Part shown: positions 2,693 to 41,961 of the stretch, piece by piece
How positions within the stretch are numbered: the stretch's first letter is position 1
Layout of the letters: every line of letters begins with the position of its first letter
NCBI GenBank assembly: GCA_021776115.1
Contig: JAJFGN010000004.1
Coordinates: forward strand, 1-64,000
DNA length: 64,000 nucleotides
Direction: 5' to 3'
DNA from: Kiloniellaceae bacterium
GTDB lineage: Bacteria > Pseudomonadota > Alphaproteobacteria > Kiloniellales > J153
Made by a program: the position numbers and the translations under genes
The notes under the pieces: generated by a model
Seen by the model: only the letters and a program-made list of their open reading frames with translations
What the model was told of the DNA's origin: nothing
The model's database searches: none

Positions 2693-2757
2693 TCCGGCCG
2701 AACCGGCGTCAGGGGTAACCAAACAACCATCACTCTTCAGTCGTCAGGAGCACGAAT

Positions 2758-3876
2758 ATGCTGGTAGGCGTTCCAAAGGAAATCAAAGTCCATGAGTACC
2801 GCGTTGGCCTGGTGCCGGCGTCGGTCCGGGAGCTAATTCATCACGGGCACAAGGTCATCGTCCAAAAGAATGCCGGATCGGGTATCGGCTTTGAGGATGG
2901 CGACTACGAGGCCGCCGGCGCCCAGGTTGCCGGGACGGCGGACGACGTTTTCGCCGTTGCCGACATGATCGTGAAGGTCAAGGAGCCGCAGGTGAGCGAG
3001 TACGGTAAGCTGCGCGAGGGGCAGGTGCTTTTTACCTACCTGCACCTGGCTCCCGACCTGCCGCAGACGAAAGGCCTGATGGAGTCCGGATGTATCGCCA
3101 TCGCCTATGAGACGGTCACCAACGCGCACGGCGGTCTACCGCTCTTGGCGCCCATGAGCGAGGTCGCGGGGCGCATGTCGGTTCAAGTCGGCGCGCACTG
3201 CCTGGAGAAGGAGCAGGGCGGGTCGGGCATGTTGTTGGGTGGCGTCCCCGGTGTGGCCGCCGCCAAGGTCGTGATCATTGGCGGCGGTGTCTCCGGCACC
3301 AACGCGGCGCGCATGGCCATGGGCATGGAGGCGCACGTCACGGTCATCGACCGCAGTATCGAGCGGCTCTATGCCCTCGACCTTCAGTTCGGGCCGATGT
3401 TGAACACGATCTACTCGACCGTGGATGCGATCGAAACCTTCGTAATCGGCGCGGACCTCGTGATCGGCGCGGTGCTGGTCCCAGGCGCGGCGGCGCCAAA
3501 ACTGGTCACGCGAGACATGATGCGGCGTATGCGCCCCGGTTCGGTCTTCGTCGATATCGCCATCGACCAGGGCGGTTGCGCCGAGACCTCACGCGGGACC
3601 ACGCATACCGATCCAACCTACGTCGAGGAAGGTGTGGTGCATTACTGCGTCACCAATATGCCCGGCGCGGTCGCGCGGACCTCGACCTTCGCGTTGAACA
3701 ACGCGACCTTGCCCTTCACCCTCGCCCTGGCCGACAAGGGCCATAAGAAGGCTTTGGCGGACAACCCACATCTCATGAACGGCCTGAATGTCGCTGGCGG
3801 TAAGGTGACCTACGAGGCGGTCGCCGAGGCCCACGGCCTGGATTATGTCCCCGCCAAGCAGGCCTTGGACTTGTAA
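2758..3876 (+). CDS. ald: Alanine dehydrogenase
   Basis: 372 aa, the full family length. It catalyses the reversible NAD-dependent deamination of L-alanine to pyruvate and ammonium. Lys75 (VKVKEP) and His96 (TYLHLA) fall exactly at the family's substrate-binding lysine and catalytic histidine. The Rossmann motif IIGGGVSGTNAARMAMGM starts near residue 173. AGGAG lies 8 bases upstream of the ATG. It follows the DMGDH-like gene by 65 bases and precedes an Fe-ADH and an alanine-forming omega-aminotransferase. Pairing Ald with a pyruvate-dependent aminotransferase is the usual arrangement for recycling the amino acceptor in taurine and beta-alanine catabolism. Confidence 0.96.
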   Translation: MLVGVPKEIKVHEYRVGLVPASVRELIHHGHKVIVQKNAGSGIGFEDGDYEAAGAQVAGTADDVFAVADMIVKVKEPQVSEYGKLREGQVLFTYLHLAPDLPQTKGLMESGCIAIAYETVTNAHGGLPLLAPMSEVAGRMSVQVGAHCLEKEQGGSGMLLGGVPGVAAAKVVIIGGGVSGTNAARMAMGMEAHVTVIDRSIERLYALDLQFGPMLNTIYSTVDAIETFVIGADLVIGAVLVPGAAAPKLVTRDMMRRMRPGSVFVDIAIDQGGCAETSRGTTHTDPTYVEEGVVHYCVTNMPGAVARTSTFALNNATLPFTLALADKGHKKALADNPHLMNGLNVAGGKVTYEAVAEAHGLDYVPAKQALDL

Positions 3877-3903
3877 GCAGCGAAGCGCGGGGTAAGATCA
3901 GTT

Positions 3904-5211
3904 ATGGCTTGTTGTCACTATTTCGCACCCAGCGAGGGCGGGGACGAGGCGTTCTCGATCGATGCTTCGACGATTACTTTCGGCCCGGGCGTCTTGCGCG
4001 AAGCGGGCGATCACGCGGCCTCCATGGGGATCAAGCGCGCGGCCCTGATGACCGACAAGGTCATGGCCGGTCTGGAACACCTTGCCGTGGTCAAGGCCGC
4101 GCTCGAAGGCGCCGGGATCGACGTCGTCGTCTATGACGAGGTCCGGGTCGAGCCGACCGACGAGTCCTTCATGGCCGCTACCCGCTTCGCCCAGGAGGGC
4201 AAGTTCGACGGTTTTATCTCGGTCGGCGGCGGTTCGGTGATGGACACCACCAAGGCGGCCAATCTCTATTCGACTTACCCGGCGGAATTTTTAACCTATG
4301 TCAACCCACCGATCGGTGGTGGACAGCCGGTTCCCGGCCCTCTCAAGCCGCATATCGCTTGCCCCTCGACCTGCGGGACGGGCAGCGAGTGTACCGGCAT
4401 CGCCGTCTTCGATCTTCTCGCCATGCGGGCCAAAACCGGGATCGTCTCGCGCCGCTTGCGGCCCAGTATGGCCCTGGTCGATCCGGTCTGTACCCATACT
4501 TTGCCCAAGAATGTGGTCGCGGCTAGTGCCTTCGACGTACTGAGCCATGCCTTGGAATCCTACACCGCCGTTGCTTACACGCGGCGCAAGGCCCCGGCAC
4601 GGCCCAGCCTGCGTCCCATGAGCCAGGGCGCCAACCCTTGGAGCGACCTGGGCTGCCGTGAGGCGCTGCGGGTATTGGGCGAGAATCTGGTGCGCGGGGT
4701 GAACGATCCGGTGGATACGGAGGCCAAGGGCCAGCTCATTTGGGCCGCGACCCTGGCCGGGATCGCCTTCGGCAATGCCGGCTGCCACGCACCCCACGGC
4801 ATGTCCTATTCGGTCTCCGGCATGGTCCGCGACTTCCAGCCCGACGGCTACCCCAAGGCGGAGGCCATCGTGCCACACGGCATGTCGGTGATCGTGAATT
4901 CGCCGGCCGTGTTCCGCTTCACCGCCGAAGCCTGTCCGGAGCGGCATTTGGAGGCGGCCAGGTGGTTGGGCGCCGATATCCGGGGCGCGACGGCGCGTGA
5001 TGCCGGCGAGGTTCTCGCGGGCCACTTGATCCAATTCATGAAAAGCACGGACATGCCGAACGGTATTGGCGGCGTCGGGTACAACCGGGACGATATTCCC
5101 GGACTCACGGAAGGCTCTTTTCCCCAGCGGCGGCTACTCGACAATGCGCCGCGCAGCATCGGAAAAGAGGAGCTCACGAAGCTGTATCAAGACGCGCTGG
5201 CGTACTGGTAG
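3904..5211 (+). CDS. Iron-containing alcohol dehydrogenase, hydroxyacid-oxoacid transhydrogenase (ADHFE1/HOT) type
   Basis: 435 aa. The N-terminus MACCHYF followed by [18 protein letters not shown] is the hallmark of the HOT branch of group III metal-dependent alcohol dehydrogenases. The nucleotide motif [14 protein letters not shown], the [12 protein letters not shown] loop and the metal-ligand region HALESY...[13 protein letters not shown]...PHGMS are all present. Characterised homologues oxidise 4-hydroxybutyrate using 2-oxoglutarate as hydride acceptor through tightly bound NAD. The gene lies 27 bases after ald and before an omega-aminotransferase. An alternative role suggested by context is interconversion of isethionate and sulfoacetaldehyde; in sulfonate metabolism the latter reaction is known for other Fe-ADHs. 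The true substrate cannot be read from the sequence. Confidence 0.9.
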
Positions 5212-5276
5212 GGCCGCCGGCCCGAAAAAACCCTGAGTTTCCGTCGTTTTCATCGGAGACTGGCCTCACGTAATCC

Positions 5277-5288
5277 GGCCAATTGGGT
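5277..5288. promoter_or_regulatory. Candidate operator GGCCAATTGGGT upstream of the aminotransferase
   Basis: GGCCAATTGGGT lies about 70 bases before the aminotransferase ATG. Its core CAATTGGG recurs in the long gene-free region before the minus-strand PotABCD operon (11873) and before the MocR-type regulator (16707), where it is a perfect 16-bp palindrome. A shared regulator is inferred. The 10-mer GGCCAATTGG also occurs inside coding sequence at 9238 and 57510, so chance is not excluded. Confidence 0.4.
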
Positions 5289-5356
5289 CTAGTCCGCCGG
5301 TCCCTGGCGGGATTAATCTGAAGCCTGGCGTAAACCTCACTGGATGGGCATCTGTC

Positions 5357-6676
5357 ATGTCGACCTTAAAGAAGATACCGAATTCGCTCGAGCAGCACTG
5401 GATGCCGTTCACGGCAAACCGGCACTTCAAGGCTAATCCGCGCCTGATTGTCGGCGCCAAGGGCATGTATTACACGACCCATAAGGGCGACACGGTCTTG
5501 GACGGTTCGTCCGGCCTGTTTTGCGTGGCCGCCGGACATGGCCGGCGCGAAATCGCGGACGCCGTCTACGAAGCCCTGACGGAGCTCGACTACGCGCCGC
5601 CGTTCCAGTTCGGCCATCCGGTCACCTTCGAATTGTCGCGCCGGATTGCGGCTTTGACGCCGGGCGACCTCAATTATGTCTTCTACACCAACTCCGGCTC
5701 TGAATCGGTCGACACTGCTCTAAAGATCGCGCTCGCCTATCAACGGGTGCGGGGCGAGGGGCAGCGCACTCGCTTGGTCGGGCGTGAGCGGTCCTACCAC
5801 GGCGTGAATTTCGGCGGTATGTCGGTGGCCGGCATGGTCAACAACAAGAAGGCTTTTGGCCTGGGCCTGCCGGGTGTCGTACACATGCGCCACACCATGC
5901 TGCCGGAGCACAAGTTCACCCTGGGTCAGCCCGAGACGGGGGCCGAACTTGCCGACGACTTGCAGCGCATGGTCGATTTGCATGGCGCCGATTCGATCGC
6001 GGCCTGCATCGTCGAGCCGATTGCGGGCTCGACCGGCGTGCTGGTGCCGCCGAAGGGCTATCTGGAGCGCCTGCGCAAGATCTGCGACCAGCACCATATT
6101 CTCCTGATCTTCGATGAGGTCATCACCGCCTTCGGCCGGACCGGCAAGCAGTTCGCCTCCGACAGCTTCGGCGTGGTGCCCGATATGATCACCATGGCCA
6201 AGGCCCTGACCAACGGTGTGGTGCCGATGGGCGCAGTCGCGGTCAGCGATAACATTTACAACACTATAACCAACGCGGCGCCGGAAACCGCGGTCGAGTT
6301 GTTCCACGGCTACACCTACTCGGGTTGCCCGGTGGCCGCCGTTGCTGCGCTGGCAACGCGCGACATCTTCGAGAAGGAACAATTGGTCGAGCGGGCGGCC
6401 AAGATGGCGCCCAAGTTCCTCGAGGGGCTGAGTTCATTCAAGGACTTGGCAATTGTGACCGATATACGCGGCTATGGCTTGCTAGGTGGGATTGACTTGG
6501 CGCCGATGGAGGCGCCGGGCCTGCGTGGCCTGGCGGTTATGCAGCAACTCTACGATGCCGGCCTGATGGTCAAGTTGACGGGCGATAGCGTCCTTATCTC
6601 GCCGCCCTTGGTCAGCGAGGAGCAGCATCTCGACGAGATATTCACCAAGCTGCGCGATGTGCTGAAGACCCATTGA
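5357..6676 (+). CDS. Omega-amino acid:pyruvate aminotransferase (class III), beta-alanine/taurine type
   Basis: 439 aa class III PLP aminotransferase, full length. The N-terminal [17 protein letters not shown] and the segment [19 protein letters not shown] are typical of the beta-alanine:pyruvate transaminase branch. [13 protein letters not shown] contains the PLP-contacting Asp, and the Schiff-base Lys is in TMAKALTNG. The enzyme moves a terminal amino group (beta-alanine, taurine, homotaurine or similar) to pyruvate, giving alanine and an aldehyde. With ald just upstream and xsc 14 kb away, taurine:pyruvate aminotransferase activity is plausible, but beta-alanine cannot be excluded. A CAATTGGG palindrome lies upstream and a strong hairpin follows the stop. 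Confidence 0.93.
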
Positions 6677-11542: not shown

Positions 11543-12018
11543 GATGTGCCTCTCCGTTTTGATGATTGAGAGCTAGGGAACATTTGCCGGCCGGGCGAGC
11601 GGGTCCGCACGCCGTTGACGAAGGGTCGACAGGTCCCAGAAATAGCGGAAGACGGTTACAACCGATCGTTCGTGTCTGGAGTGTTGCCGCACGTGCATCT
11701 CGCAGGCCTCCGGCACCCTGTATATTTTTGCGCTCTTGCGGCGCCTTGTGGCGGCGGTCCGATCTATGCCATTCGTAACGCCGCCATATCGTATACTATG
11801 CGCGCCGCTGCCGAATTGAAACGGAACTTCATGCCATGAATCGAGGTTAAAGAGCCAAGAAAAGGCGGGTAAGGGCCAATTGGGCGAATATCGTGGGGCC
11901 AAGGATGCCGAAGCTTTTCGGACAAATTGTGGCCAGCGAATCTTTTTCGGTGCCGAGAGATGCCAGCTTTCAGTAGATTGACCACGCACGGACCCAAATT
12001 CGGGGCGATCACATAGTT
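11543..12018. other. Gene-free region upstream of the minus-strand PotABCD operon
   Basis: 476 bases without a convincing gene; open frames here (for example a 202-codon minus frame) have atypical composition and no family resemblance. It holds the 13-base near-palindrome GGGCCAATTGGGC at 11873-11885 and should contain the promoter of the minus-strand transporter operon, but no clear -35/-10 pair could be assigned. Confidence 0.5.
11873..11885. promoter_or_regulatory. Candidate operator GGGCCAATTGGGC
   Basis: Near-palindrome around AATT that shares CAATTGGG with sites before the aminotransferase (5277) and before the MocR-like regulator gene (16707). It is about 330 bases upstream of the minus-strand binding-protein start and 134 bases upstream of the plus-strand small secreted protein, so it could serve either. 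It is a motif match only. Confidence 0.4.
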
Positions 12019-12624: not shown

Positions 12625-13704
12625 ATGATCGCCAAGGCGATTAAGTATACGGCTGCAGTCCTCGCGCTTAGCGTTGGTTTTGGTGGCGCTCAAGCTGCCG
12701 AGAAGTTGCGGCTTCTTACATGGGGCGGCTATGCCCCCGACGGTGTGATCGCAGAGTTCGAAAAGGCGACCGGCATCGACGTCGAAGTCACGCTTTCCAA
12801 CAACGAGGAGATGATCTCCAAGCTGCGCGCCACGGGAGGCTCTGGGTTTGACTTGGCTCAGCCGAGCCAGGACCGTATCGCCGGCCCGCAAACGGAATAC
12901 GGCATTTACAAAGCGCTCGACCTTGGCAAGCTCGATGCGAGCCTGTTCATTTCTTCCATGCTCGAGGCGACCAAGAAAAATACGACGGTCGACGGCAAAG
13001 TCTATGGCGTTCCGCATGTCTGGGGCACCAGCGGCCTGGTGGTTAACACCAAGGCGGCCGGCTGGGTCAAGGATTACACCGATCTGTGTAACGCCAAGCT
13101 TAAGGGCCGCGTGAGCTACCGGACCGCGCGTCCGACTCTCATCGCCTTCGCCTTCGCAATGGGAAAGGATCCCTTCGCGGCTTACGGAGACGCCAAAGCC
13201 TATGAAGCCTTGATGAACGAAGTCGGTAAGGCGCTGATTGCTTGCAAGTCGAACGTGAAGTTCTACTGGGACGGCGGCAAGGACAAGCTCCTGGCGGGTT
13301 TGCGGTCGGGCGAAGTGAACGCGGCGATGGCCTGGGACACCGGTGGCTGGAGTTTGAACAACGAGAACCCGGACGTAACCTTCGTTGCACCGAAGACCGG
13401 GGCGTTGGGTTGGATCGACACCTTCGCCATCCCGGCCAAGGGCCGGAACGACGATGCCGCTTACAAGTGGATTAACTTCGTCAATCGGCCGGACATTTCC
13501 GCCAAGATCATTGAGTCGGCCGGCAACTTCACCTCGTCCAAGGGGGCCGATCAGCTCATCAAGGGCAAGCTGAAGGAGCAGTTCGCGGTTAGCTTCCCGC
13601 AGGCGGCAATCGACAACATCAAATGGTATCCGCCGATTCCGGCGGGACTTGAGAGCATCGAGGGTAAAGTCCTCGATCGCGTCAAGGCGGCCAAGTCCGA
13701 GTAA
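12625..13704 (+). CDS. Extracellular solute-binding protein, PotD type, Sec-exported
   Basis: 359 aa. The N-terminus has a Sec signal peptide (hydrophobic AAVLALSVGFGGAQAAE, cleavage after AQA near residue 24). The mature start KLRLLTWGGYAPDGVIAEFEKATGIDVEV and the repeat of the sensor pattern NNEEMISKLRATGGSGFDLAQPS are PotD-like. SD AAGGGAGA lies 6 bases before the ATG. It leads a plus-strand operon SBP-ATPase-permease-permease parallel in content to the divergent minus-strand operon. Its identity to the other binding protein is low by eye, so the two systems probably differ in ligand and are not a recent duplication. Confidence 0.95.
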   Translation: MIAKAIKYTAAVLALSVGFGGAQAAEKLRLLTWGGYAPDGVIAEFEKATGIDVEVTLSNNEEMISKLRATGGSGFDLAQPSQDRIAGPQTEYGIYKALDLGKLDASLFISSMLEATKKNTTVDGKVYGVPHVWGTSGLVVNTKAAGWVKDYTDLCNAKLKGRVSYRTARPTLIAFAFAMGKDPFAAYGDAKAYEALMNEVGKALIACKSNVKFYWDGGKDKLLAGLRSGEVNAAMAWDTGGWSLNNENPDVTFVAPKTGALGWIDTFAIPAKGRNDDAAYKWINFVNRPDISAKIIESAGNFTSSKGADQLIKGKLKEQFAVSFPQAAIDNIKWYPPIPAGLESIEGKVLDRVKAAKSE

Positions 13705-13716
13705 CGTCGTCTCTTA

Positions 13717-13747
13717 GCTGTCCCGCCGGTCTTCCCGGCGGGACAGC
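13717..13747 (+). promoter_or_regulatory. Perfect 13-bp hairpin between binding protein and ATPase genes
   Basis: GCTGTCCCGCCGG and its exact complement flank the loop TCTTC. It lies 12 bases after the binding-protein stop and 28 before the ATPase start. There is no T-run, so partial termination or mRNA stabilisation of the upstream gene is more likely than full termination. Confidence 0.6.
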
Positions 13748-13775
13748 GCTCATTTCCTCAGGCTGACATTCAGGC

Positions 13776-14891
13776 ATGACCGATCTTCCCGATTTAGAAG
13801 TTCGGAACGTCACGAAGCGTTTCGGGCCCTATACCGCCGTTGATCGGATCTCGTTCTCTATACCGAGGGGCTCGTTCTTCTCGATTCTGGGTCCCTCTGG
13901 CTGTGGCAAGACGACCCTGATGCGGATGATCGCCGGTTTCACGGAGCCGGACGAAGGCGAGATCGTGATCCGGGGTAAGTCAATGAACGGTGTGCCGCCC
14001 AACAAGCGGCCGGCAAGCATGGTATTCCAGCACCTTGCCCTATTTCCGATGATGTCTGTCGCCGAAAACGTGGGCTACGGACTGCGGCGGCAAGGGATCG
14101 CGAAGCCGCAAATCGCCGAGCGGGTCGCGGGCATACTCGAGAGAGTGGGGCTGCCGGACGCGGGCGGCAAGAGCATCGACCAGTTATCCGGCGGCCAGAA
14201 GCAACGGGTGGCAATCGCACGCTGCCTGGTCCTGGATCCCGACCTACTGCTCCTGGACGAGCCTTTGGGCGCGCTCGATTTGAAGCTGCGCGAGCACATG
14301 AAGATCGAACTAAAGCAGCTTCAGGCCGAGATTGGCACGACCTTTGTCTACATCACACACGATCAGTCCGAAGCGCTGGTCATGTCAGACCGCATCGCGG
14401 TTATGAACCAAGGCCAGTTCGAGCAGATCGGCGCCGGCCAAGAGCTGTACTACAACCCCGATACTCGATTTGTCGCCGGCTTCGTCGGCAACTCCAACCG
14501 CTGGCCCGGCCGGGTGGAAGCCGTCGACAACGGCACCTTGCGGGTTCTTACCGACGATGGGCTGAATTGTCAGGTGTCCGTGACCGGCCAAGCTTCCGCC
14601 GGCGCGGCGGTCGAAGTCTTCCTGCGGCCGGAAGTGGTCGCGATCAGCCGTGAGGCCGAAGGCGTTTCGGACATGGCCAATCGCTTGCGCGGCAGCGTGC
14701 GGAATCTATTGTTCGATGGGGCAAACAGTACAGCCTACGTCGCCGACCAGGGATCGAAGGCCGTGTTCGCCGTGGCCTTGCCTCAGACCGGGCGTCTGGC
14801 CGATCTGAAACCCGGGCAGGAGGTCCATCTCGGCTGGGATGCCGCGCAAGCGAATTGTTTTCTGGCGCCGCAACCAGGGGCAAACGGATGA
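13776..14891 (+). CDS. ABC transporter ATP-binding protein, PotA type
   Basis: 371 aa. Walker A GPSGCGKTT is at residues 39-47, followed by the signature LSGGQKQRVAIARCL, Walker B LLLDEPLGALD, switch THDQSEALVMSDRI and a C-terminal TOBE domain (about 250-365). It couples ATP hydrolysis to the two following permeases. The stop overlaps the next gene by 4 bases (ATGA at 14888-14891). Confidence 0.95.
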   Translation: MTDLPDLEVRNVTKRFGPYTAVDRISFSIPRGSFFSILGPSGCGKTTLMRMIAGFTEPDEGEIVIRGKSMNGVPPNKRPASMVFQHLALFPMMSVAENVGYGLRRQGIAKPQIAERVAGILERVGLPDAGGKSIDQLSGGQKQRVAIARCLVLDPDLLLLDEPLGALDLKLREHMKIELKQLQAEIGTTFVYITHDQSEALVMSDRIAVMNQGQFEQIGAGQELYYNPDTRFVAGFVGNSNRWPGRVEAVDNGTLRVLTDDGLNCQVSVTGQASAGAAVEVFLRPEVVAISREAEGVSDMANRLRGSVRNLLFDGANSTAYVADQGSKAVFAVALPQTGRLADLKPGQEVHLGWDAAQANCFLAPQPGANG

Positions 14892-15751
14892 ACCAGCGCA
14901 GTGGCTTTCGCGTGGGGCTGTTTCTTCTGCTCGCCCCAGGGGTGCTGTGGCTGGGCCTGCTGATCGTTCTTCCGCATGCTGAATTGTTTCTCGTCTCCTT
15001 GAGGGAGCGGGTCGCGCCCAGAGTGTACGAGAGCGGGCTGACCAATTATCTCGAGTTCTTTATCGAGCCTCTATACTGGAACACTTTTCTGCGCACCGCG
15101 ACCTATTCCGTCATGGCGACGGCGCTCACTCTCCTGATCGCATTCCCAGTCGCTTACTACATCGCCAAGATGCTTCGCGGCAGGCCCAAAAATATTCTGT
15201 TCTTGCTATGCCTCTTGCCTTTCTGGGTTAGCGAGCTGGTGCGCGCGCTTGGTTGGATCATCTTGCTGCGCGAGACGGGTGTGGTTTCGACGTTTTTGCA
15301 GACTCTGGGGCTGGTCGATGCGCCGGTCGAATTCCTCTACAACGATGCGGCGATGCTGGTTGGCCTGATTTATACCTCGATGCTTTTCATGGTCATACCG
15401 CTGGTTGGCGCGCTCGACACCCTGGACGACAGCCTGATCGAAGCTGGCTACAACCTGGGAGGCAACGGGTTCGTCGTGCTTCGGGAGATCGTGATCCCGC
15501 ATGCGATGCCAGGGATCGTATCTGGGTGCATCGTGGTATTCATGCTGACGCTCGGCAACTATGTCACGCCGACCTTACTGGGCGGCAAAGACAGCCTTTG
15601 GTTTACCGAGCAGATCTACAACCAATTCATCTTGCGGTTCAACTGGGAGCAGGGCTCGGCGTTTGGGTTTCTGCTGCTCGCGCTGTCTTCTTTCATAGTC
15701 TGGGCCGGCCTCAAGTTAAGCCGTCAGAGCCTGGGCAAGGTCATGACATGA
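14888..15751 (+). CDS. ABC transporter permease, PotB type
   Basis: 287 aa starting at the ATG that overlaps the ATPase stop; an upstream in-frame ATG at 14855 lies inside the ATPase gene and is unlikely. It has six predicted membrane helices. The EAA loop is EAGYNLGGNGFVVLREIVIPHAMPGI, and WFTEQIYNQFILRFNWEQG near the end matches PotB proteins. It is cotranscribed with the second permease 13 bases downstream. Confidence 0.94.
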   Translation: MNQRSGFRVGLFLLLAPGVLWLGLLIVLPHAELFLVSLRERVAPRVYESGLTNYLEFFIEPLYWNTFLRTATYSVMATALTLLIAFPVAYYIAKMLRGRPKNILFLLCLLPFWVSELVRALGWIILLRETGVVSTFLQTLGLVDAPVEFLYNDAAMLVGLIYTSMLFMVIPLVGALDTLDDSLIEAGYNLGGNGFVVLREIVIPHAMPGIVSGCIVVFMLTLGNYVTPTLLGGKDSLWFTEQIYNQFILRFNWEQGSAFGFLLLALSSFIVWAGLKLSRQSLGKVMT

Positions 15752-15764
15752 GGGGAATGCGCTG

Positions 15765-16628
15765 ATGCTGCCAACACTTCCCCAAGGTAAGGCCGCAAGG
15801 GCGATCTACGGTGCCTATATCGTCGGCTTCCTGGTTTACCTGTTTGCGCCGCTGGTGGTCGTCGTCGCCTTCGCCTTCAATGACAGTAACTTTTCCTCGC
15901 CGCCGTGGAACGGCTTCACGTTTGGCTGGTTCGTGGATTCCGGTCCGGATAGGGTCGGCCTCCTGCACAACGATCCGCTAACCCGCAGTCTCGCCGTTAG
16001 CCTTCAGGTCGCCCTGGGGGTCGCGGTGCTGTCGGTGGCGGTTGGCACCTGCAACGCCTTCCTGTTCGAGCGGCACAAGTTCCCGCTGCGCGGCCTGCTC
16101 TACATGATGATGCTCTGGCCGCTGGTGATCCCGGGTGTCATCCTCGGTATCTCGATCCTGGCGTTTTCAAGCACCGTCGCCAACAGCTTGGAAGAGCTGC
16201 TGAACATGGATATCGATTTCCTCCGGCCCGGCCTGCCGCTCGTCATACTTGGGCAGTTTGCCTTTATTACGACTATCACGACCCTGGTCATCTCAGCGCG
16301 GCTTAGAAAGTTCGATCCGACACTTGAGGAAGCGGCCCTCAATCTTGGCGCCAGCAAGATGATGGCGATTGCGACCGTGACCCTGCCTTACCTCCTGCCG
16401 GCGATCATTGGTGCGTCGGTCATCGCCTTCCTGATGTCTTTCGAGAACTTCAACACCACGCTGATGCTGGTTGGATCGGATGCGCCCTTGACGATCCAAC
16501 TCTATTCTATGATGCGGGAAGGTTCGACGCCGGTCGTCAACGCGGTAAGCGTCGCCTTGATCGGCGGCTCGGCGCTTCTGGTGTTGGCTTTGATCTTCAC
16601 CGACCGGGGCGAGAAGAAGGCCCGATAG
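15765..16628 (+). CDS. ABC transporter permease, PotC type
   Basis: 287 aa, six helices. The N-terminus GFLVYLFAPLVVVVAFAFNDSNFSSPPWNGFTF (split across the first helix and periplasmic loop) is typical of PotC. The EAA loop EEAALNLGASKMMAIATVTLPYLLPAI is intact. It is the last gene of the operon and is followed at once by a hairpin terminator. Confidence 0.94.
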   Translation: MLPTLPQGKAARAIYGAYIVGFLVYLFAPLVVVVAFAFNDSNFSSPPWNGFTFGWFVDSGPDRVGLLHNDPLTRSLAVSLQVALGVAVLSVAVGTCNAFLFERHKFPLRGLLYMMMLWPLVIPGVILGISILAFSSTVANSLEELLNMDIDFLRPGLPLVILGQFAFITTITTLVISARLRKFDPTLEEAALNLGASKMMAIATVTLPYLLPAIIGASVIAFLMSFENFNTTLMLVGSDAPLTIQLYSMMREGSTPVVNAVSVALIGGSALLVLALIFTDRGEKKAR

Positions 16629-16700: not shown

Positions 16701-16735
16701 GGCCAGTGGCCCAATTGGGCCAGGATAGGCCAGGG
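16701..16735. promoter_or_regulatory. Candidate operator upstream of MocR-like regulator: 16-bp palindrome plus GGCCAG repeats
   Basis: TGGCCCAATTGGGCCA (16707-16722) is a perfect 16-bp palindrome. GGCCAG occurs three times in direct orientation, at 16701, 16718 and 16728. The region is 47-81 bases before the preferred start of the regulator gene and suggests autoregulation. The CAATTGGG core is shared with 5277 and 11873, and GGGCCAGG with the xsc upstream region. Confidence 0.5.
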
Positions 16736-16781
16736 ATTAGAGCCAGTTATGGTGGCTCTGGACCGGAACGCAGGACAGAGT

Positions 16782-18254
16782 ATGCGCGAGCTAATCTTTC
16801 CAGTTCGGCACGATGGCGAAGTCGGCCTTCAGGCACAGATCAGGCGGCATCTGGTCGACGCCATTCTTGACGGGCGTCTGCAAGCGGATAACCCCTTGCC
16901 CTCCTGCCGGCGTATGGCGCACGCCCTTGGCGTATCGCGCAACACGGTCGTTCTGGCCTATCAAGCCTTGGCCGACGAGGGGTTTCTGCAGTCGCGTGAG
17001 CGGGTCGGGTATTTCGTCAATACGGAGATGCTCGACGAGCCGGTTAAACTCAATGTCCAACCCCTGGCGCCGCCGGAACCCGGCAGTTTAACCGATTGGC
17101 GCCAACGGCTGCTCCTTCGTCCCTCGGACCAGCCGCAACTCAGCAAACCCAAGAACTGGCGCCAATATCCCTATCCCTTCATCTATGGCCAGGCGGACCC
17201 AAGCCTGTTTCCGGTGGCCGCTTGGCGATTGTGCTCGCGCCAGGCCATGGGCGTGGAAGCCATCAACCGTTGGACCGAGGATCGTTTCGACGAGGATGAC
17301 CCTTTGTTGATCGAGGAGGTGCGCACGCGAGTTCTACCGCGCCGGGGCGTTCGAGCCGCTTCCGACGAAATTCTCATCACCATGGGGGCGCAGAACGCCC
17401 TGTATTTGATCGCACGTTTGCTTGCCGGCTCCGGCACAACGATCGGAGTCGAAGATCCCGGATACGTCGATGCCCGCAACATATTCGGGTTGACGGGCGC
17501 GCGGGTGCGCCCAATTCCGATCGACCACGCGGGCATGGTGGTGGACAAATCCCTGCACCGCTGCAATTGCGTCTATGTGACGCCCAGCCATCAATCGCCC
17601 ACCACGGTGACGATGCCTATGGAGCGCCGGGTGGAGCTGCTGGAGACGGCCGCCCGGCATAACATCGCGGTGATCGAGGACGACTACGAAGCCGAGGCCA
17701 ATTTCATCAGTTCGCCGACCTCGGCACTGAAGTCCATGGACCAGGATCGGACCGTTGTCTACGTCGGCTCGTTCTCCAAGAGCCTCGCGCCCGGCCTGCG
17801 GATCGGATACATGGTCGCTTCCGCGTCCTTTATCCAGGAAGCACGGATGCTGCGCCGCATGATCCTGCGCCACCCACCTTCGAACAACCAGCGAACAGTC
17901 GCGCTGTTCGTTTCCGGCGGGTACTACGACGCCCTGATCAGCCGGCTGCAGCGGGTCTACCGCAGCCGTTGGGAGGCCATGGGCGAGGCGCTCAACACCT
18001 ATCTTCCGGATAGCGCGCGTACGCCGTCCTTCGGCGGCACGAGTTATTGGGTGCGTGGGCCGGACTCCATGGACGCCGGAGAGCTAGCGGCGAATGCCTT
18101 GCCGCAAGGTATTGTGTTGGAGCCCGGGTCGCTATTTTTTCACGGCGCTAAAGCGCCCAAGAACTATTTCCGTCTGGGGTTCTCGTCCATTCGATCCGAG
18201 AAGATTCCGCAAGGTATCAAATTGCTGTCGGAAATCATCAAGGCAGGCGCGTAG
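16782..18254 (+). CDS. MocR-family PLP-dependent transcriptional regulator (TauR-like)
   Basis: 490 aa. The N-terminal GntR-type winged helix (about 5-75) contains LPSCRRMAHALGVSRNTVVLAYQALADEG. It is fused to a class I aminotransferase-like domain (about 110-485) with a PLP lysine region GSFSKSLAPGLRIGYM. MocR regulators sense amino compounds through PLP chemistry; TauR controls taurine genes in Rhodobacter, and the nearby xsc makes that role likely (inference). The ATG at 16782 has AGGA 8 bases upstream and gives the family-typical MRELIFPVR start. An in-frame ATG at 16749 lacks an SD. Confidence 0.9.
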   Translation: MRELIFPVRHDGEVGLQAQIRRHLVDAILDGRLQADNPLPSCRRMAHALGVSRNTVVLAYQALADEGFLQSRERVGYFVNTEMLDEPVKLNVQPLAPPEPGSLTDWRQRLLLRPSDQPQLSKPKNWRQYPYPFIYGQADPSLFPVAAWRLCSRQAMGVEAINRWTEDRFDEDDPLLIEEVRTRVLPRRGVRAASDEILITMGAQNALYLIARLLAGSGTTIGVEDPGYVDARNIFGLTGARVRPIPIDHAGMVVDKSLHRCNCVYVTPSHQSPTTVTMPMERRVELLETAARHNIAVIEDDYEAEANFISSPTSALKSMDQDRTVVYVGSFSKSLAPGLRIGYMVASASFIQEARMLRRMILRHPPSNNQRTVALFVSGGYYDALISRLQRVYRSRWEAMGEALNTYLPDSARTPSFGGTSYWVRGPDSMDAGELAANALPQGIVLEPGSLFFHGAKAPKNYFRLGFSSIRSEKIPQGIKLLSEIIKAGA

Positions 18255-18297: not shown

Positions 18298-19506
18298 CTA
18301 AGAACCGACCAGGGCAAGCGTATGGCGGGCAATGACCAACTCCTCGTCGGTCGGAATGACCCAAGCCGTCACTGGACTCCCGGGGTCGGTAAGGCAAGGG
18401 CCGTGACGGGCGTTCGCAGAGTCGTCAAGATCGACGCCAAGCCAGCGCGTACCCGCACAGACCATGGCGCGTATCGGCGCGGCGTTCTCGCCCACGCCGC
18501 CAGTGAACACCAAGGCATCCAGCCCGCCCAATGCCGCGGCAAGAGATCCGATCTCCCGTACGATTCGGTAGCAATAGAGCTCGATCGCTTCGGCGGCCTC
18601 GGGTCGCCCGGACGAAAGCAGGGTCCGCATGTCGCTGCTGATGCCAGATACGCCAAGCAGGCCAGAACGGTCGTAGAGAAGCTCACCCAAGGCCGCCGCG
18701 TCGAGGCCTTCGCTGCGGAGCAGGTATAGCAGCACACCGGGGTCGAGCGCGCCGCAGCGGGTGCCCATCATCAGGCCGTCCAGGGTCGAGAAACCCATGG
18801 TGGTCGCGATGCTCCGGCCGTCCTGAATCGCGCACATGCTAGCCCCATTGCCGAGGTGGGCGACAATCAATCTACGCGGCAGGACATTGCCGGCGATTCT
18901 CTGGGCAAGGGCGCCGGTAACATATTCATAGGACAGACCGTGGAAACCGTAGCGGCGCAAGCCCGCCTCATCATAAGCGCGCGGTAGGGCCAGGCGAGTC
19001 GCGGCCGGTGGCTGCTTGGCGTGAAAGGCGGTGTCGAAGCATGCGACCTGAGGCAATCCAGGACGCCGCTCCGAGACGGCCCGTATGGCGGTTAGATTGT
19101 GCGGCAGGTGATGCGGCGCAAGAGGGGCGATCGCGGTTAGTTTTTCCATCACTTGCGCCGTGACTGGCTGGGGTACGCTGAAATACGTGCCGCCATGGAC
19201 GACGCGGTGTCCTGCGGCCACGATCCGCAGGTCCGCGGCGTCTTTTTCGAACCAGTCGAGCAGCAATTCTAGCGCCGCGGCATGGTCCTTCACCTGCCTT
19301 ACTTGTGACTCGTTAGGCGGGTTATCAAAGCCCCTGCCGGATCGGCCGTGAAGCCGCAACTCAGGCGCCTCGCCAATACGTTCAACTTGACCGCGAAGAA
19401 TAGGGAATGGATCGTGTTCGGATTGACCCTGATCTGCTTGCGGAAGAAAGAGTGCAAACTTCAAAGACGAGGAACCGGCGTTTAGGACAACCACGACGTC
19501 GCGCAC
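18298..19506 (-). CDS. ackA: Acetate kinase
   Basis: 402 aa starting at GTG. It converts acetyl phosphate plus ADP to acetate plus ATP. Family motifs appear in order: NAGSSSLKFAL (residues 9-19), HRVVHGG, CFDTAFH, RRYGFHGLSYEYV, HLGNGASMCAI, TMGFSTLDGLMMGTRCG and FTGGVGENA. It is last in the minus-strand run xsc-tauE-ackA, 19 bases behind the TauE-like gene. Xsc produces acetyl phosphate, so AckA here can recover ATP directly. Most described xsc clusters instead carry pta, which is not seen in this window. Confidence 0.95.
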   Translation of the reverse strand: MRDVVVVLNAGSSSLKFALFLPQADQGQSEHDPFPILRGQVERIGEAPELRLHGRSGRGFDNPPNESQVRQVKDHAAALELLLDWFEKDAADLRIVAAGHRVVHGGTYFSVPQPVTAQVMEKLTAIAPLAPHHLPHNLTAIRAVSERRPGLPQVACFDTAFHAKQPPAATRLALPRAYDEAGLRRYGFHGLSYEYVTGALAQRIAGNVLPRRLIVAHLGNGASMCAIQDGRSIATTMGFSTLDGLMMGTRCGALDPGVLLYLLRSEGLDAAALGELLYDRSGLLGVSGISSDMRTLLSSGRPEAAEAIELYCYRIVREIGSLAAALGGLDALVFTGGVGENAAPIRAMVCAGTRWLGVDLDDSANARHGPCLTDPGSPVTAWVIPTDEELVIARHTLALVGS

Positions 19507-19525: not shown

Positions 19526-20266
19526 TCAGGTCAGCAAAGCGCGGGCCAGCACCGCCAAAGAGAGTAGGGCGAGCAGGACCACGACGAAACGCCGGAACGT
19601 TTCCGGCGGCGTGTGGATGAAGCGGCGGTTTCCCAAGGCGATGCCGATGAAGACCGGGCCGGCGAGGATCGCGGCAAGAACGAACACGTCCGTCGTAACC
19701 AGACCGTTCGCGCCGGCCAAACCTAGTCCGAGGACATCCAACACAAACAAGAAGGCGATCAGAGAGGCACGCGACACCGCCACGGGCGCCGGGCCGGAAA
19801 AATAAAACAGAATGACCGGCGGGCCGCCGATCCCGGTCCAGCCATTGAACAGACCCGAAGCGACCCCGGTACAGGCGGCGGGCAGGGGGCCTGGTATGGA
19901 TTTGAGCGAGAAGCCGCGCGAGAGCAGGAAGGTCGCAGCGAGGACCACCAGCGCGATGGCGACGCGTACAGGGGCCGGCGGCAGGCTGGCCAACAGATAA
20001 AGCCCCAGCGGCAGACCGAGCACGACCCCGAGGAATAGCCAGCGCAGGGAACGCCAGTCGGCTTGCCGCCAGACACCGGGCAGCAGACCGATACTTGCGA
20101 CGAGTTCCAGCATGTAGACCGCCGGCACGACCAGGATCGGTGGAAAGACAACGGACATGCCGCTAACCCAGATGAGCGAGGACCCAAAACCGCTATAGCC
20201 ACGCACAAAGGCACCGATCGACACGGCGATTACGGAGACCGTCACGGCCAGAGGATCAAAATTCAC
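19526..20266 (-). CDS. TauE/SafE-family membrane protein, probable sulfite/sulfonate exporter
   Basis: 246 aa from a GTG that places the first helix at the N-terminus. A further GTG at 20332 would add 22 hydrophilic residues. About eight helices are visible, with the two glycine-rich repeats of the family: AFVRGYSGFGSSLIW near the start and GLFNGWTGIGGPPVILFYF in the middle. TauE/SafE proteins export sulfite, sulfoacetate or related anions during sulfonate breakdown. Its position between xsc and ackA supports sulfite export after Xsc cleavage. The ligand is inferred from context. Confidence 0.88.
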   Translation of the reverse strand: MNFDPLAVTVSVIAVSIGAFVRGYSGFGSSLIWVSGMSVVFPPILVVPAVYMLELVASIGLLPGVWRQADWRSLRWLFLGVVLGLPLGLYLLASLPPAPVRVAIALVVLAATFLLSRGFSLKSIPGPLPAACTGVASGLFNGWTGIGGPPVILFYFSGPAPVAVSRASLIAFLFVLDVLGLGLAGANGLVTTDVFVLAAILAGPVFIGIALGNRRFIHTPPETFRRFVVVLLALLSLAVLARALLT

Positions 20267-20382
20267 AGCCGCGCGGTCCCGCTCTCCCAGTTCCGAATAC
20301 GGGCGCCGAGATAAGGGAGAGTATGTCGGCACCCGAAATGACGGTGTTTAGTTTAGCAGGGAGCCCGTGTCGAAGCGAAGAG

Positions 20383-22137
20383 TTACGCTGTAACGTATTC
20401 CTTGTACTTGTCGAGCAGGCGAACTGGCTTACTCAAGGCATCGCGGCGGAAGGGGTCGCCCAATTCGCGCGTGCACATAACTTCCAGGATTGTAGTTTTG
20501 CCCCGCTTCTGCGCGTCGCAAGCTTTCTCCAGGGCCTCGCCCACATCGCCCAGGTTGCTCACGGTCACGCCCTCCGCTCCCATAGAGCGGGCAATTTCGG
20601 CGAAACTCGGGTTCTTCAGATCGACGCCCAGAAAGCGGGTGCCGTAAAAGTCGACCTGGTTCTTCTTTTCCGCACCCCACTGCTTATTGTGGAAGACGAC
20701 CGCGGTAACCGGGATGTCCTCGCGCACGCAGGTCAGAATTTCCCCAAAGCTCATACCCCAGGCGCCGTCGCCCACATAGGCCACGGCCGGACGGTCCGGT
20801 GCCGCGACCTTGGCGCCGATGATGGTTGGGAAGGCATAACCGCAGTTGCCGAAACTCATGGCCGCGAAGAAGCTGTTCGGCTTGTTGAAGCGCAGATAGC
20901 TGTTCGACACCGAGCAGATGTTGCCGATGTCGGTCGAGACCATGGCGTCCCCGGGCAAGGCTTTCTCCAGCTCGCGCAGCATCTGACGCGGATGCATCAG
21001 ATCCCGGTCCTCGGCGGAGACTTCCCGACTCCAGGCGTCGTTTTCCTGCGACCAGGCGTCGAGTTCGCTTTCCCACGCCGCCTTTTGGGTCTTGATTTCG
21101 TCCAGGCGCCGGGGGGCGTTTTCACGGCACGCCATTTCCCGGTTCTGTAAGCGCTGGAGAAGCGACTTGGCCGAAGCCTTGGCGTCGCCGCAAACACCAA
21201 CGCCGATCTTCTTGACCAGGCCAAGCATACGATGGTCGGTGTCGACCTGTATGATCTTGGCGTCCTTGGGCCAATAGTCCAGGCCGTGTTGAGGCAGGGT
21301 GCCGAAGGGGCCGAGGCGGGTGCCCAGCGCCAGCACCACGTCGGCCTGGGCGATCAGTTTCATACCCGCCTTTGAGCCTTGATAACCTAACGACCCGCAC
21401 CACAGGGGGTGCTTGGCCGGAAATGAATCGTTGTGCAGGTAGGAGTTAACGACCGGCGCATTGAGATGCTCCGCCAGGGCGACGCATTCGTCGACACCGC
21501 CGGAGAAGACCACGCCGCCGCCCGAGACGATGACCGGGAACTTGGCCTCGGCCAACAGCGCCGCTGCGTCGTCCAGGCTCTTCTCGCCGCCAGGACCCCG
21601 CTCAACCGATCTAGCACCCGTGATATCGACGTCCACCTCGCCATAGAAATGGTCGCGCGGGATGTTGAGCTGGGTCGGGCCCCTCTCCGCCATGGCCATA
21701 TCGAAGCAGCGCCCGGTGATTTCCGCCATGCGCTTGGGGCTCGTCACATGGCCCTGATATTTGGTGATCTTGGAGAAGATCGGCAGTTGCTCGGTCTCCT
21801 GAAAGCCACCCAAGCCCATGGTCTGCGAACCGGTCTCGGGCGTAATCGCCACGACCGGGGAGTGTGCCCAGTAGGCAGCCGCGATGGCGGTCACGAAATT
21901 AGTGATCCCTGGCCCGTTTTGGCCGATGCATACGCCGTGGCGCCCGCTAACCCGCGAATATCCGTCGGCCATATGCGCGGAGCCCTGCTCGTGCACCGTG
22001 GGGATAAAGCGGATACCGGCGGCCGGAAAGATATCGAGCGCGTCCATATAGGCCGAACCCACGATCCCGAAGACATCGGTGACCCCCTGGGCCACTAGCG
22101 TCTCGACAAATGCCTCGCTGGACGTCATGCGGGTCAT
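20383..22137 (-). CDS. xsc: Sulfoacetaldehyde acetyltransferase
   Basis: 584 aa. It is a ThDP-dependent enzyme that converts sulfoacetaldehyde and phosphate to acetyl phosphate and sulfite. The N-terminal Pyr domain has the catalytic Glu context PTVHEQGSAHMADGYSR, then QNGPGITNFVTAIAAAYWAHSP, which is diagnostic for Xsc against other acetolactate synthase relatives. The C-terminal PP domain carries GDGAWGMSFGEI...FHNKQWGAEKKNQ, the GDG...N Mg-ThDP motif. The ATG at 22137 has SD AAGGGAGA; the frame is open 24 codons further upstream without support. It heads xsc-tauE-ackA. Confidence 0.95.
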   Translation of the reverse strand: MTRMTSSEAFVETLVAQGVTDVFGIVGSAYMDALDIFPAAGIRFIPTVHEQGSAHMADGYSRVSGRHGVCIGQNGPGITNFVTAIAAAYWAHSPVVAITPETGSQTMGLGGFQETEQLPIFSKITKYQGHVTSPKRMAEITGRCFDMAMAERGPTQLNIPRDHFYGEVDVDITGARSVERGPGGEKSLDDAAALLAEAKFPVIVSGGGVVFSGGVDECVALAEHLNAPVVNSYLHNDSFPAKHPLWCGSLGYQGSKAGMKLIAQADVVLALGTRLGPFGTLPQHGLDYWPKDAKIIQVDTDHRMLGLVKKIGVGVCGDAKASAKSLLQRLQNREMACRENAPRRLDEIKTQKAAWESELDAWSQENDAWSREVSAEDRDLMHPRQMLRELEKALPGDAMVSTDIGNICSVSNSYLRFNKPNSFFAAMSFGNCGYAFPTIIGAKVAAPDRPAVAYVGDGAWGMSFGEILTCVREDIPVTAVVFHNKQWGAEKKNQVDFYGTRFLGVDLKNPSFAEIARSMGAEGVTVSNLGDVGEALEKACDAQKRGKTTILEVMCTRELGDPFRRDALSKPVRLLDKYKEYVTA

Positions 22138-22218: not shown

Positions 22219-22268
22219 TGGGCCAGGGCTGAACAGAGCCAGATGGAAATCGCTTGTGGGGCCAGGGC
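22219..22268. promoter_or_regulatory. Direct repeats GGGCCAGGGC upstream of xsc
   Basis: The 10-mer GGGCCAGGGC occurs at 22220-22229 and again at 22259-22268, 39 bases apart, about 80-130 bases before the xsc start. MocR-type regulators commonly bind widely spaced direct repeats. GGGCCAGG also lies in the operator-like region before the MocR-like gene (16717). Binding is inferred. Confidence 0.4.
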
Positions 22269-22434: not shown

Positions 22435-23304
22435 ATGACCAAAGTCGCGTTTATAGGTCTCGGTGTCATGGGATATCCCATGGCGGGTCATCTCCAGAAT
22501 AAGGGGCACCAGGTAACCGTTTACAACCGCACCGCCGCCAAGGCGGAAAAATGGGTCGCGGAATACGGTGGAAGCATGGCTAAAACGCCGCGCGCCGCGG
22601 CCGAGGGCGCGGACATTGCCTTTATCATGGTCGGTAACGACGATGACATACGCGCCGTGGTCCTGGGAGAAGAAGGGGCTTTCGCCGGACTTGGCCAAGG
22701 CAAGGTTCTGGTCGATCACACCACCGCCTCCGCCGACGTCGCGCGTGAAATTTACGCTGTCGGCAAAGATAAAGGGATCGCAACCCTCGACGGCCCGGTG
22801 TCGGGCGGCGAGGCTGGCGCCGTGAACGGCGTCTTGACGGTTATGTGCGGCGGCGACCAGGCGCCCTTCGATCAGGTCAAGCCGGTCATCGATTGTTACG
22901 CCCGGGCCTGTACCCTGTTAGGCGGGGCAGGCGCCGGTCAGTTGACCAAGATGGTCAACCAGATTTGCATCGCCGGGCTGGTCCAAGGCTTGTCCGAGGG
23001 CATGAACTTCGGGGCGCGGGCCGGTCTGGACATGGCGACGGTGATTGAGGTGATCGCCAAGGGCGCGGCCGGATCTTGGCAGATGGAAAACCGGGCGCCG
23101 ACCATGTGCGAGGGTAAATACGACTTCGGCTTCGCGGTCGATTGGATGCGCAAGGATCTTGGCAACTGCCTTGCCGAGGCCAAGCGTAACGGCGCGCGCT
23201 TGCCGGTGGCGGCCCTGGTCGATCAGTTCTATGCCCAGGTTCAGGCCCGTGGCGGCAATCGCTGGGATACCTCCAGCCTGATGCACCTGCTGGTCAACGA
23301 TTGA
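22435..23304 (+). CDS. Beta-hydroxyacid dehydrogenase family NAD(P)-dependent oxidoreductase
   Basis: 289 aa. The Rossmann motif FIGLGVMGYPMAGHL is at residues 6-20. The substrate motif DGPVSGGEAGAVNGVLTVMCGG follows near residue 120, and the catalytic-lysine helix GAGQLTKMVNQI near 175, all diagnostic of the beta-HAD family. Family members act on 3-hydroxyisobutyrate, tartronate semialdehyde, sulfolactaldehyde and similar compounds. The gene is divergent from xsc, which hints at a role in C2-C3 acid or sulfonate metabolism, but the substrate cannot be assigned. Confidence 0.92.
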   Translation: MTKVAFIGLGVMGYPMAGHLQNKGHQVTVYNRTAAKAEKWVAEYGGSMAKTPRAAAEGADIAFIMVGNDDDIRAVVLGEEGAFAGLGQGKVLVDHTTASADVAREIYAVGKDKGIATLDGPVSGGEAGAVNGVLTVMCGGDQAPFDQVKPVIDCYARACTLLGGAGAGQLTKMVNQICIAGLVQGLSEGMNFGARAGLDMATVIEVIAKGAAGSWQMENRAPTMCEGKYDFGFAVDWMRKDLGNCLAEAKRNGARLPVAALVDQFYAQVQARGGNRWDTSSLMHLLVND

Positions 23305-40770: not shown

Positions 40771-41961
40771 CTACCTTTCCACCAGCGCAACGCGCTTATT
40801 GTACCAGTTCATCACCATCGAAATGGAGAGCGAGAACGTCAGATAAATCGCAAGCACGATCGACATGCTTTCGAGCGCCCGGCCGGTTTGGTTGAGCGAG
40901 ATGCCCCCGATTGTAGCGACGATATCCATGTAACCGACCGCGATCGCCAGCGAAGAGTTCTTTGTCAGGTTGAGATACTGGCTGATAAGCGGTGGCAGGA
41001 TAACGCGCAGGGCCTGCGGTAGAATCACCAACCGCATGGTCCAATTGGGGCGAATTCCCAAGGCGTAGGAGGCTTCCGTCTGACCATGACTGACAGACTG
41101 AATGCCGGCGCGCACGATCTCGGAAATGAAGGAGGCCGTGTAAATTGTTAGGGCGAACCACAAGGCCAAAAACTCCGGCCTGAGGGTCAGACCGCCCTTG
41201 AAGTTGAATCCGCTCAACGCGGGCCAATTTAATGAAACGGGCTGGCCGGCGGCAAAATAAGCCAGCAGCGGCAGGACCACGATAATGCTCAGGCTAATCG
41301 AGATCACTGGGTAGATCTTGCCAGTTGTCTCTTGGATTCTCTTGGCATAGCGCCTGAAGGCGATCGCGCCCGCGACCGCAACGGCGAGCGCAATAAAGAT
41401 TATCCAGGACCCCGATCCAAATTCCGGACCGGGCAAGACCAATCCGCGGTTCGACAAGAAAATGCCTGATAAGGGCTCAAGCGCGTTCTTGGGCCGGGGC
41501 AACGAATGCACCACGAGGGCATACCACAACAAGATCTGGAGCAGCAGCGGCACGTTGCGCGTAAACTCGACGTAGCAATACATCATCCGGCTGATCAGCC
41601 AGTTTCCCGACAGGCGCAGCACGCCCACGGTGAAACCGAGCAAAGTGGCGGTGATGATTCCGCATAGCGCGATCAACCCGGTGTTCAAGATACCGACGAT
41701 CGTCGCGCGGCCATGGGTGCTGCGCGAATCGTAGTCGATCAAGGTTTGGCTGATGTCGTAGCTGGAGGGATCGTTCAGAAAACCGTAGCCGGTTTCGATA
41801 CCCAGAGTCTGGAGATTGTTGATGGTGTTGTTGACGATATAAGCGAGGAACGCGAAAAGCCCGGCTAGCGCCAAAATCTGAACAAAGATGGCACGCCATC
41901 GGCGATCGGTCCAAAGGTCCTCCAGCTTGAAACTGGGAGCCTGATATTCAATGGCTGACAT
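40771..41961 (-). CDS. aapQ: General L-amino acid ABC transporter permease AapQ
   Basis: 396 aa with the large periplasmic insertion typical of AapQ. The N-terminal ETGYGFLNDPSSYDISQTLIDYDS and the EAA loop TEASYALGIRPNWTMRLVILPQALRVILPPL identify it. It is separated from aapJ by 95 bases with a hairpin. Confidence 0.95.
   Translation of the reverse strand: MSAIEYQAPSFKLEDLWTDRRWRAIFVQILALAGLFAFLAYIVNNTINNLQTLGIETGYGFLNDPSSYDISQTLIDYDSRSTHGRATIVGILNTGLIALCGIITATLLGFTVGVLRLSGNWLISRMMYCYVEFTRNVPLLLQILLWYALVVHSLPRPKNALEPLSGIFLSNRGLVLPGPEFGSGSWIIFIALAVAVAGAIAFRRYAKRIQETTGKIYPVISISLSIIVVLPLLAYFAAGQPVSLNWPALSGFNFKGGLTLRPEFLALWFALTIYTASFISEIVRAGIQSVSHGQTEASYALGIRPNWTMRLVILPQALRVILPPLISQYLNLTKNSSLAIAVGYMDIVATIGGISLNQTGRALESMSIVLAIYLTFSLSISMVMNWYNKRVALVER

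Follow-up and report, generated by a model that had tools for sequence, protein, structure and literature searches.

The window analysed here is a 64,000-nucleotide stretch of a Kiloniellaceae bacterium contig in which a pair of direct repeats lies upstream of xsc, the gene of sulfoacetaldehyde acetyltransferase. The question that the locus raises is what these repeats are, and which protein reads them. The xsc gene (20383-22137, minus strand, start MTRMTSSEAFV; TIGR03457, 956 bits, cut-off 676) shares its strand with genes for a TauE/SafE-type sulfite exporter (19526-20332; PF01925) and an acetate kinase family protein (18298-19506; TIGR00016, 352 bits, cut-off 293). A gene for a 3-hydroxyisobutyrate-dehydrogenase-type reductase, HIB (22435-23304, plus strand), diverges from xsc across the repeats. 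A MocR-type regulator, with a GntR winged helix-turn-helix and an aminotransferase-like domain, is encoded at 16782-18254 of the plus strand; its start is taken from orthologues (MR[DE]), the listed reading frame beginning at 16749. By far the most probable explanation, judged from sequence, is that the repeats are two of the three direct half-sites making up a MocR-type operator between xsc and HIB, which this regulator reads.

A predicted operator of three boxes between xsc and HIB

The divergent region measures 297 bp, from the xsc start at 22137 (minus strand) to HIB at 22435 (plus strand). The direct repeat announced by the original prediction is indeed there: GGGCCAGGGC occupies 22220-22229 and 22259-22268 of the plus strand, its start having been placed one base early, at 22219. 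What had been overlooked is a middle copy, AGCCAG, at 22237. The noted repeats are thus, in our reading of the sequence, the outer two boxes of a conserved predicted operator of three direct RGCCAR boxes: box 1, GGCCAG (22221-22226), inside the first GGGCCAGGGC copy; box 2, AGCCAG (22237-22242), 16 bp further; and box 3, GGCCAG (22260-22265), inside the second copy and 23 bp after box 2, all on the plus strand. The 39-bp distance between the repeats is therefore the sum of 16 and 23, and the core of the predicted operator is the pair of boxes 2 and 3, at 22237 and 22260, 23 bp apart. Read towards xsc, the boxes are CTGGCC or CTGGCT.

Taken alone, the repeat is weak evidence and only mildly unusual, with a chance level of about 2-4%, since 99 of 5000 shuffles of the intergenic region contain some 10-mer exactly repeated in direct orientation within 60 bp, and 28 of the 638 real stretches of 297 bp in the window hold a comparable repeat. 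The 10-mer itself is common DNA in the host genome, as its 76 copies indicate (38 for the reversed control), and GGGCCAGG occurs 10 times in the window against 3.55 expected, a count reached in none of 100 shuffles. The 76 copies and the 28 of 638 stretches are what speaks for functionless repeats, produced by an GGGCCAGG that is common in a G+C-rich genome. We regard that reading as highly improbable: the boxes are conserved across genera, keep a fixed 23-bp register and recur at several genes of one cluster. It is the register with the third copy, together with conservation, that raises the repeat above chance.

Just downstream of box 1, a TAACAT is kept in the window and in two relatives, G008 and G007; it may be the -10 element of xsc, with no good -35, core promoters having been judged by eye. 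An inverted YTGGCY box between boxes 2 and 3 was considered as a general part of the operator and dropped: it lies at +11 in 3 and at +6 in 1 of 24 operators, none of them at xsc.

Conservation of the 23-bp pair in relatives

A search for xsc in 61 genomes of the order gave 36 rows at E <= 1e-150, which fall into two types: the window type, with 70-100% identity (9 rows), and another type with 45-48% (27 rows). Two window-type rows (G025 and G028), where the contig begins inside the gene, were left out. A pair of the 23-bp type stands upstream of xsc in 6 of the 7 remaining window-type loci, the window included, and is missing in L205 (genome G048); the absence of the repeats in close relatives, which the original prediction had named as decisive against it, is therefore not what we observe, and the result favours an operator. 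For the other type, 21 loci were tested (6 further rows were left out) and 2 had no start; the pair is present in 11 of the other 19 and absent by the same test in 8. Among shuffled upstream regions 46 of 5200 were positive, in a control by mononucleotide shuffling and with a box set that had been widened (TGCCAR, GACCAR, spacing 22-23) after part of the sequences had been seen. In all 17 positive upstream regions the pair is on the strand opposite xsc, with one extra pair on the xsc strand in L214.

A block of this region is preserved in G008 and G007 and, partially, in G006 and G003; what all of these share is two RGCCAR-like boxes 23 bp apart. When four upstream regions are aligned (the window, L051, L054 and L018; the longer L052 was left out), 24 of 54 columns are identical inside the operator and 31 of 243 elsewhere. 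Across 23 syntenic sequences, namely the window and 22 loci of relatives, 23 is the commonest of 54 spacings, with 24 pairs against a mean of 5.8 (sd 4.0); the next, 15, has 18 pairs, and 30 shuffles gave a mean of 1.7 and a maximum of 5. Three of the 24 pairs are one shared coding sequence (L083, L093, L095). In L082-L084, L086-L092 and L094, no pair was found at a distance of up to 160 bp from the regulator gene.

Some arrangements in relatives are worth recording. G048 carries both xsc types on one contig, about 3.5 kb apart, and either type can carry the operator. In G006 the operator is kept before HIB, where there is no xsc. Strong 23-bp pairs of the TTAGGGCCAR...GTGAGGCCAR form lie just past HIB in G008 (L051, 5211) and G007 (L052, 14002).

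Recurrence at five places of the cluster

The same arrangement precedes the regulator gene, with boxes at 16701-16706, 16718-16723 and 16741-16746 of the plus strand; its layout (17 + 23) parallels that at xsc (16 + 23). The original prediction had listed copies in this region, and GGGCCAGG at 16717 and GGCCAG at 16701, 16718 and 16728 are all present; the copy at 16701 is in register, the one at 16728 is not. In G007 (L052, 7071-7139) the regulator operator is a 23-17-23 series of four boxes, looking like two 23-bp pairs placed next to each other.

A third site, GGCCAA-N17-GGCCAA (11874-11902, plus strand), has two boxes, at 11874 and 11897, and lies 332 bp before the start of a PotD-like transporter gene (11542, minus strand); the transporter operator of G006 is at the same 332 bp from its gene. 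RGCCAR-N17-RGCCAR occurs in the window at exactly these three places, transporter, regulator and xsc (0.15 expected; 3 reached in none of 100 shuffles). The 4.3-Mb genome holds 28 copies, and 23 for the reversed control, so that 3 of the 28 fall within 10.4 kb.

Two further sites carry one mismatch each. On the minus strand, ACCCAA-N17-GGCCAG (5260-5288, mismatch in box 2) precedes the start, at 5357, of an AptA-type omega-aminotransferase gene (5357-6676, plus strand; NF052567, 644 bits, cut-off 500), and AGCCAG-N17-GGCCAC (143-171, mismatch in box 3) precedes the first gene of the cluster, which starts at 245. Since the window contains 19 one-mismatch pairs in all, a single one means little, and it is conservation that argues for the sites at 5260 and 143. 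An opposite-strand pair of this kind is found upstream of the aminotransferase gene in 9 of 11 loci (absent in L052 and L055; 15 of 3300 shuffles), and the first-operon pair is also present in G008 and G007, hence in 3 of the 3 loci examined. The aminotransferase gene is a probable member of the regulon. The 420 bp before the window's alanine dehydrogenase, alcohol dehydrogenase and second transporter genes hold no one-mismatch pair.

The original prediction had treated the repeats as distinct from a second site, CAATTGGG. This motif has 6 copies in the window against 2.56 expected, a count reached in 5 of 100 shuffles, and is not present at xsc. In a comparison that left out the copies at 41042 and 57897, CAATTGGG overlaps box 2 of the same operator type three times, at 5280-5287 (aminotransferase), 11877 (transporter) and 16712-16719 (regulator); box 2 precedes it at the first two and follows it at the regulator. 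Before the aminotransferase gene the motif is kept in 3 of 10 relatives, within the operator block. Because of the overlap with box 2 in three operators, we do not consider CAATTGGG a separate site.

The MocR-type regulator and its promoter

The product of 16782-18254 combines an N-terminal GntR winged helix (PF00392, 49.6 bits, cut-off 27) with a fold-type-I aminotransferase-like domain (PF00155, 61.8 bits, cut-off 19.7), the architecture of the MocR subfamily. It also matches the PdxR-like NCBIfam profile NF052282 (361 bits, cut-off 320), and there is no TauR model among the 25 of 64 families listed. Its sequence includes FSKSLAPGLRIGY, whose lysine may be the PLP Schiff-base lysine, the candidate counterpart of GabR Lys312. 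The recognition helix reads SRNTVVLAY, versus mostly SRITVTLAY in TauR. In a quick tree of 34 rows, midpoint-rooted and with no bootstrap, the regulator falls outside the TauR-proper clade of Sinorhizobium and Rhodobacterales TauR-type proteins, 12 rows on a branch with SH-aLRT 100; by sequence, it belongs to a sister MocR group of TauR proper.

An upstream motif, TTGnnn-N17-TA...T, precedes the regulator gene in 20 of 22 loci and is missing in the window and in L093. In L051-L054, box 1 of the regulator operator starts three bases after the -10. The window also has a second PotD/PotABC-like transporter operon (12625-16628: SBP2, ATP2 and two permeases), located between the first transporter and the regulator; no such operon was seen at the matching position in the mapped relatives. 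It may be an insertion, and read-through from it may now drive the regulator.

A real operator could also serve some other regulator than that of 16782-18254, as the pairing of the two is drawn from sequence, and the other-type xsc has the same boxes in genomes in which a paralogue of the TauR-proper clade, such as L050 of G006, may act. We think this improbable, given that in the window's genome the next match to the protein has 31% identity over residues 196-494 and that the regulator's own gene has these boxes upstream, a usual feature of autoregulation.

Relation to TauR operators and the place of box 1

TauR is described in PMC5320631 as binding direct repeats of CTGGACYTAA, with regulons that include xsc, ackA and tauE (section 14 of that paper); the Rhodobacter capsulatus operator (Wiethaus et al. 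2008) is cited here after PMC5320631, PMC4254191 and PMC6677901. The TauR box becomes TTARGTCCAG when written for the window's strand, and the consensus here is approximately NTAGRGCCAR. None of the window's operator boxes equals TTARGTCCAG, the RGCCAR boxes differing from it by one to a few bases; both types of box occur in G027. A strict scan for the TauR operator, allowing up to 1 mismatch, found none in 385 genomes of the class.

In the species genome collection, a scan for pairs of perfect CTGGACYTAA boxes at distances of 5-35 bp returned 70 stretches. Ten of them have a tau-type match nearby (tblastn with xsc, the regulator, the aminotransferase or TauE), and here the spacing is 23 bp in 8 and 22 bp in 2; one of the eight, L131, has a distant aminotransferase match only. 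In the 7 stretches with an xsc match, the pair is on the xsc strand. The other 60 have no tau-type match, including four Rhodobacteraceae-type stretches at spacing 32 (L098, L099, L115, L160). The window operators have the same core spacing, 23 bp, and the same location at xsc and tau genes, in the xsc-HIB region and at the regulator gene.

The original prediction placed the core differently, in the 39-bp pair 22220/22259, as the site of a widely spaced dimer. Both of these copies are kept in G008 and G007, AGCCAA and GGCCAG stand before HIB in G006, an RGCCAR occurs at the offset of box 1 in all three, and a span of 39-40 bp is also found in the family's regulator operators. At xsc of G003, G030 and G027, however, the 22220 copy is absent and boxes 2 and 3 are still there; the transporter operator has no box 1; and the TauR-type pairs near tau-type genes are spaced like boxes 2 and 3, with no box at -16 or -17 (10 operators, by eye). 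We hence reject the 39-bp pair as the core site, a version to which we give little credence, and consider the 22220 copy an accessory third box, as far as sequence comparison can tell. Among 24 hand-picked operators, five have an RGCCAR at -16 and three have one at -17, each of these eight coming from the window's family; the regulator operator of G008 has a degenerate TACCAG at the third-box position.

The idea of a TauR-like site at xsc thus stands in part. The site is most likely a TauR-like MocR-type operator, common to the regulator gene; its boxes are not TTARGTCCAG and its proposed regulator lies outside the TauR clade. It resembles the R. capsulatus TauR operator in its direct repeats, in their orientation toward xsc and in its 23-bp core, the last judged from TauR-type pairs of other genomes and not from R. 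capsulatus itself. The closest boxes are one base apart (TTAGGTCCAG versus the window-type TTAGGGCCAG), and xsc, tauE and ackA are among the TauR targets given in PMC5320631. The differences are RGCCAR in place of GTCCAG, the additional direct box, at 16-17 bp, of the window's family, the proposed regulator's position outside the TauR-proper clade and a cluster with a PotD-type transporter and an HIB-type reductase.

In Sinorhizobium meliloti, a MocR regulator, TauR (SMb21525), likewise stands beside taurine genes (PMC4254191). It has 43% identity to the window's regulator and, unlike it, lies inside the TauR-proper clade. In strain GR4 (L097), TATATCCAG and TGAGTCCAG stand 22 bp apart before the regulator gene, with 3 mismatches in total to the box used; this regulator is unannotated and was taken as TauR from its neighbour genes. 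Three direct boxes form a rare class of MocR operators, with 4 regulogs and 18 regulons in Table 2 of PMC5320631; the window's three boxes in one direction resemble it, the comparison being by box direction alone. As in the OapR regulons treated in the same paper, the operator is carried by an AptA-type omega-aminotransferase gene, but the Rhodospirillales OapR motifs shown there are two inverted repeats and those of the window are direct. A GGCCAG variant was not found in the literature titles and abstracts searched, which says little, most papers being outside the reach of the search. Altogether, the sequence evidence points to a real operator of an ordinary, already known bacterial type, in a variant form: its box differs, it has one half-site more, and its proposed regulator comes from a sister group. 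It does not amount to a new type of control site.

A model of regulation

Most likely, a head-to-tail dimer of the regulator would bind the core, boxes 2 and 3, whose 23 bp are about two helical turns. Box 1, 16 bp nearer to xsc, could offer a further contact for the regulator within the xsc core promoter or adjacent to it. The effector would probably be taurine, or an omega-amino compound related to it, in PLP-bound form, and the effector-loaded regulator would activate xsc-tauE-ack, the PotD-like transporter, the omega-aminotransferase and the first operon. At these four places the boxes read gene-ward as CTGG or variants, as TauR boxes do at xsc, which is compatible with activation. The boxes at the regulator gene have the opposite orientation and, as seen in relatives, stand downstream of the promoter, from which we infer that the regulator would repress its own gene. 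Activation of sulfonate breakdown and transport, combined with autorepression of the regulator, is then the likely role of the operator. Against this explanation we count the regulator's position outside the TauR-proper clade, the xsc loci with no pair, the loci in which none was found near the regulator gene and the window's regulator gene, which is devoid of the promoter motif.

A more elaborate scheme, a three-box switch, is doubtful. Free of effector, the dimer would span boxes 1 and 3 (39-40 bp, over the core promoter, repressed); with effector-PLP, it would move to boxes 2 and 3 (23 bp, activating). If true, one fixed layout would serve both repression and activation in a MocR group sharing, or having taken over, TauR-type operators.

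Under the preferred reading, the predicted operator is approximately NTAGRGCCAR-N13-NTGRGGCCAR, with 23 bp between boxes and, optionally, a further box at 16-17 bp; it would belong to a MocR group other than TauR. With this consensus, sulfonate-use regulons should be predictable in this order. The operator and its putative regulator would also make it possible to test cleanly whether paralogous MocR regulators are told apart by spacing or by base identity.

The conserved cluster at 245-6676 encodes a sarcosine-dehydrogenase-like FAD/GCV_T protein, an alanine dehydrogenase, an iron-type alcohol dehydrogenase and the AptA-type omega-aminotransferase. In S. meliloti (L097), a gene for a 53% relative of the sarcosine-dehydrogenase-like protein also lies close to xsc, a hint of N-methyl-taurine-like substrates.
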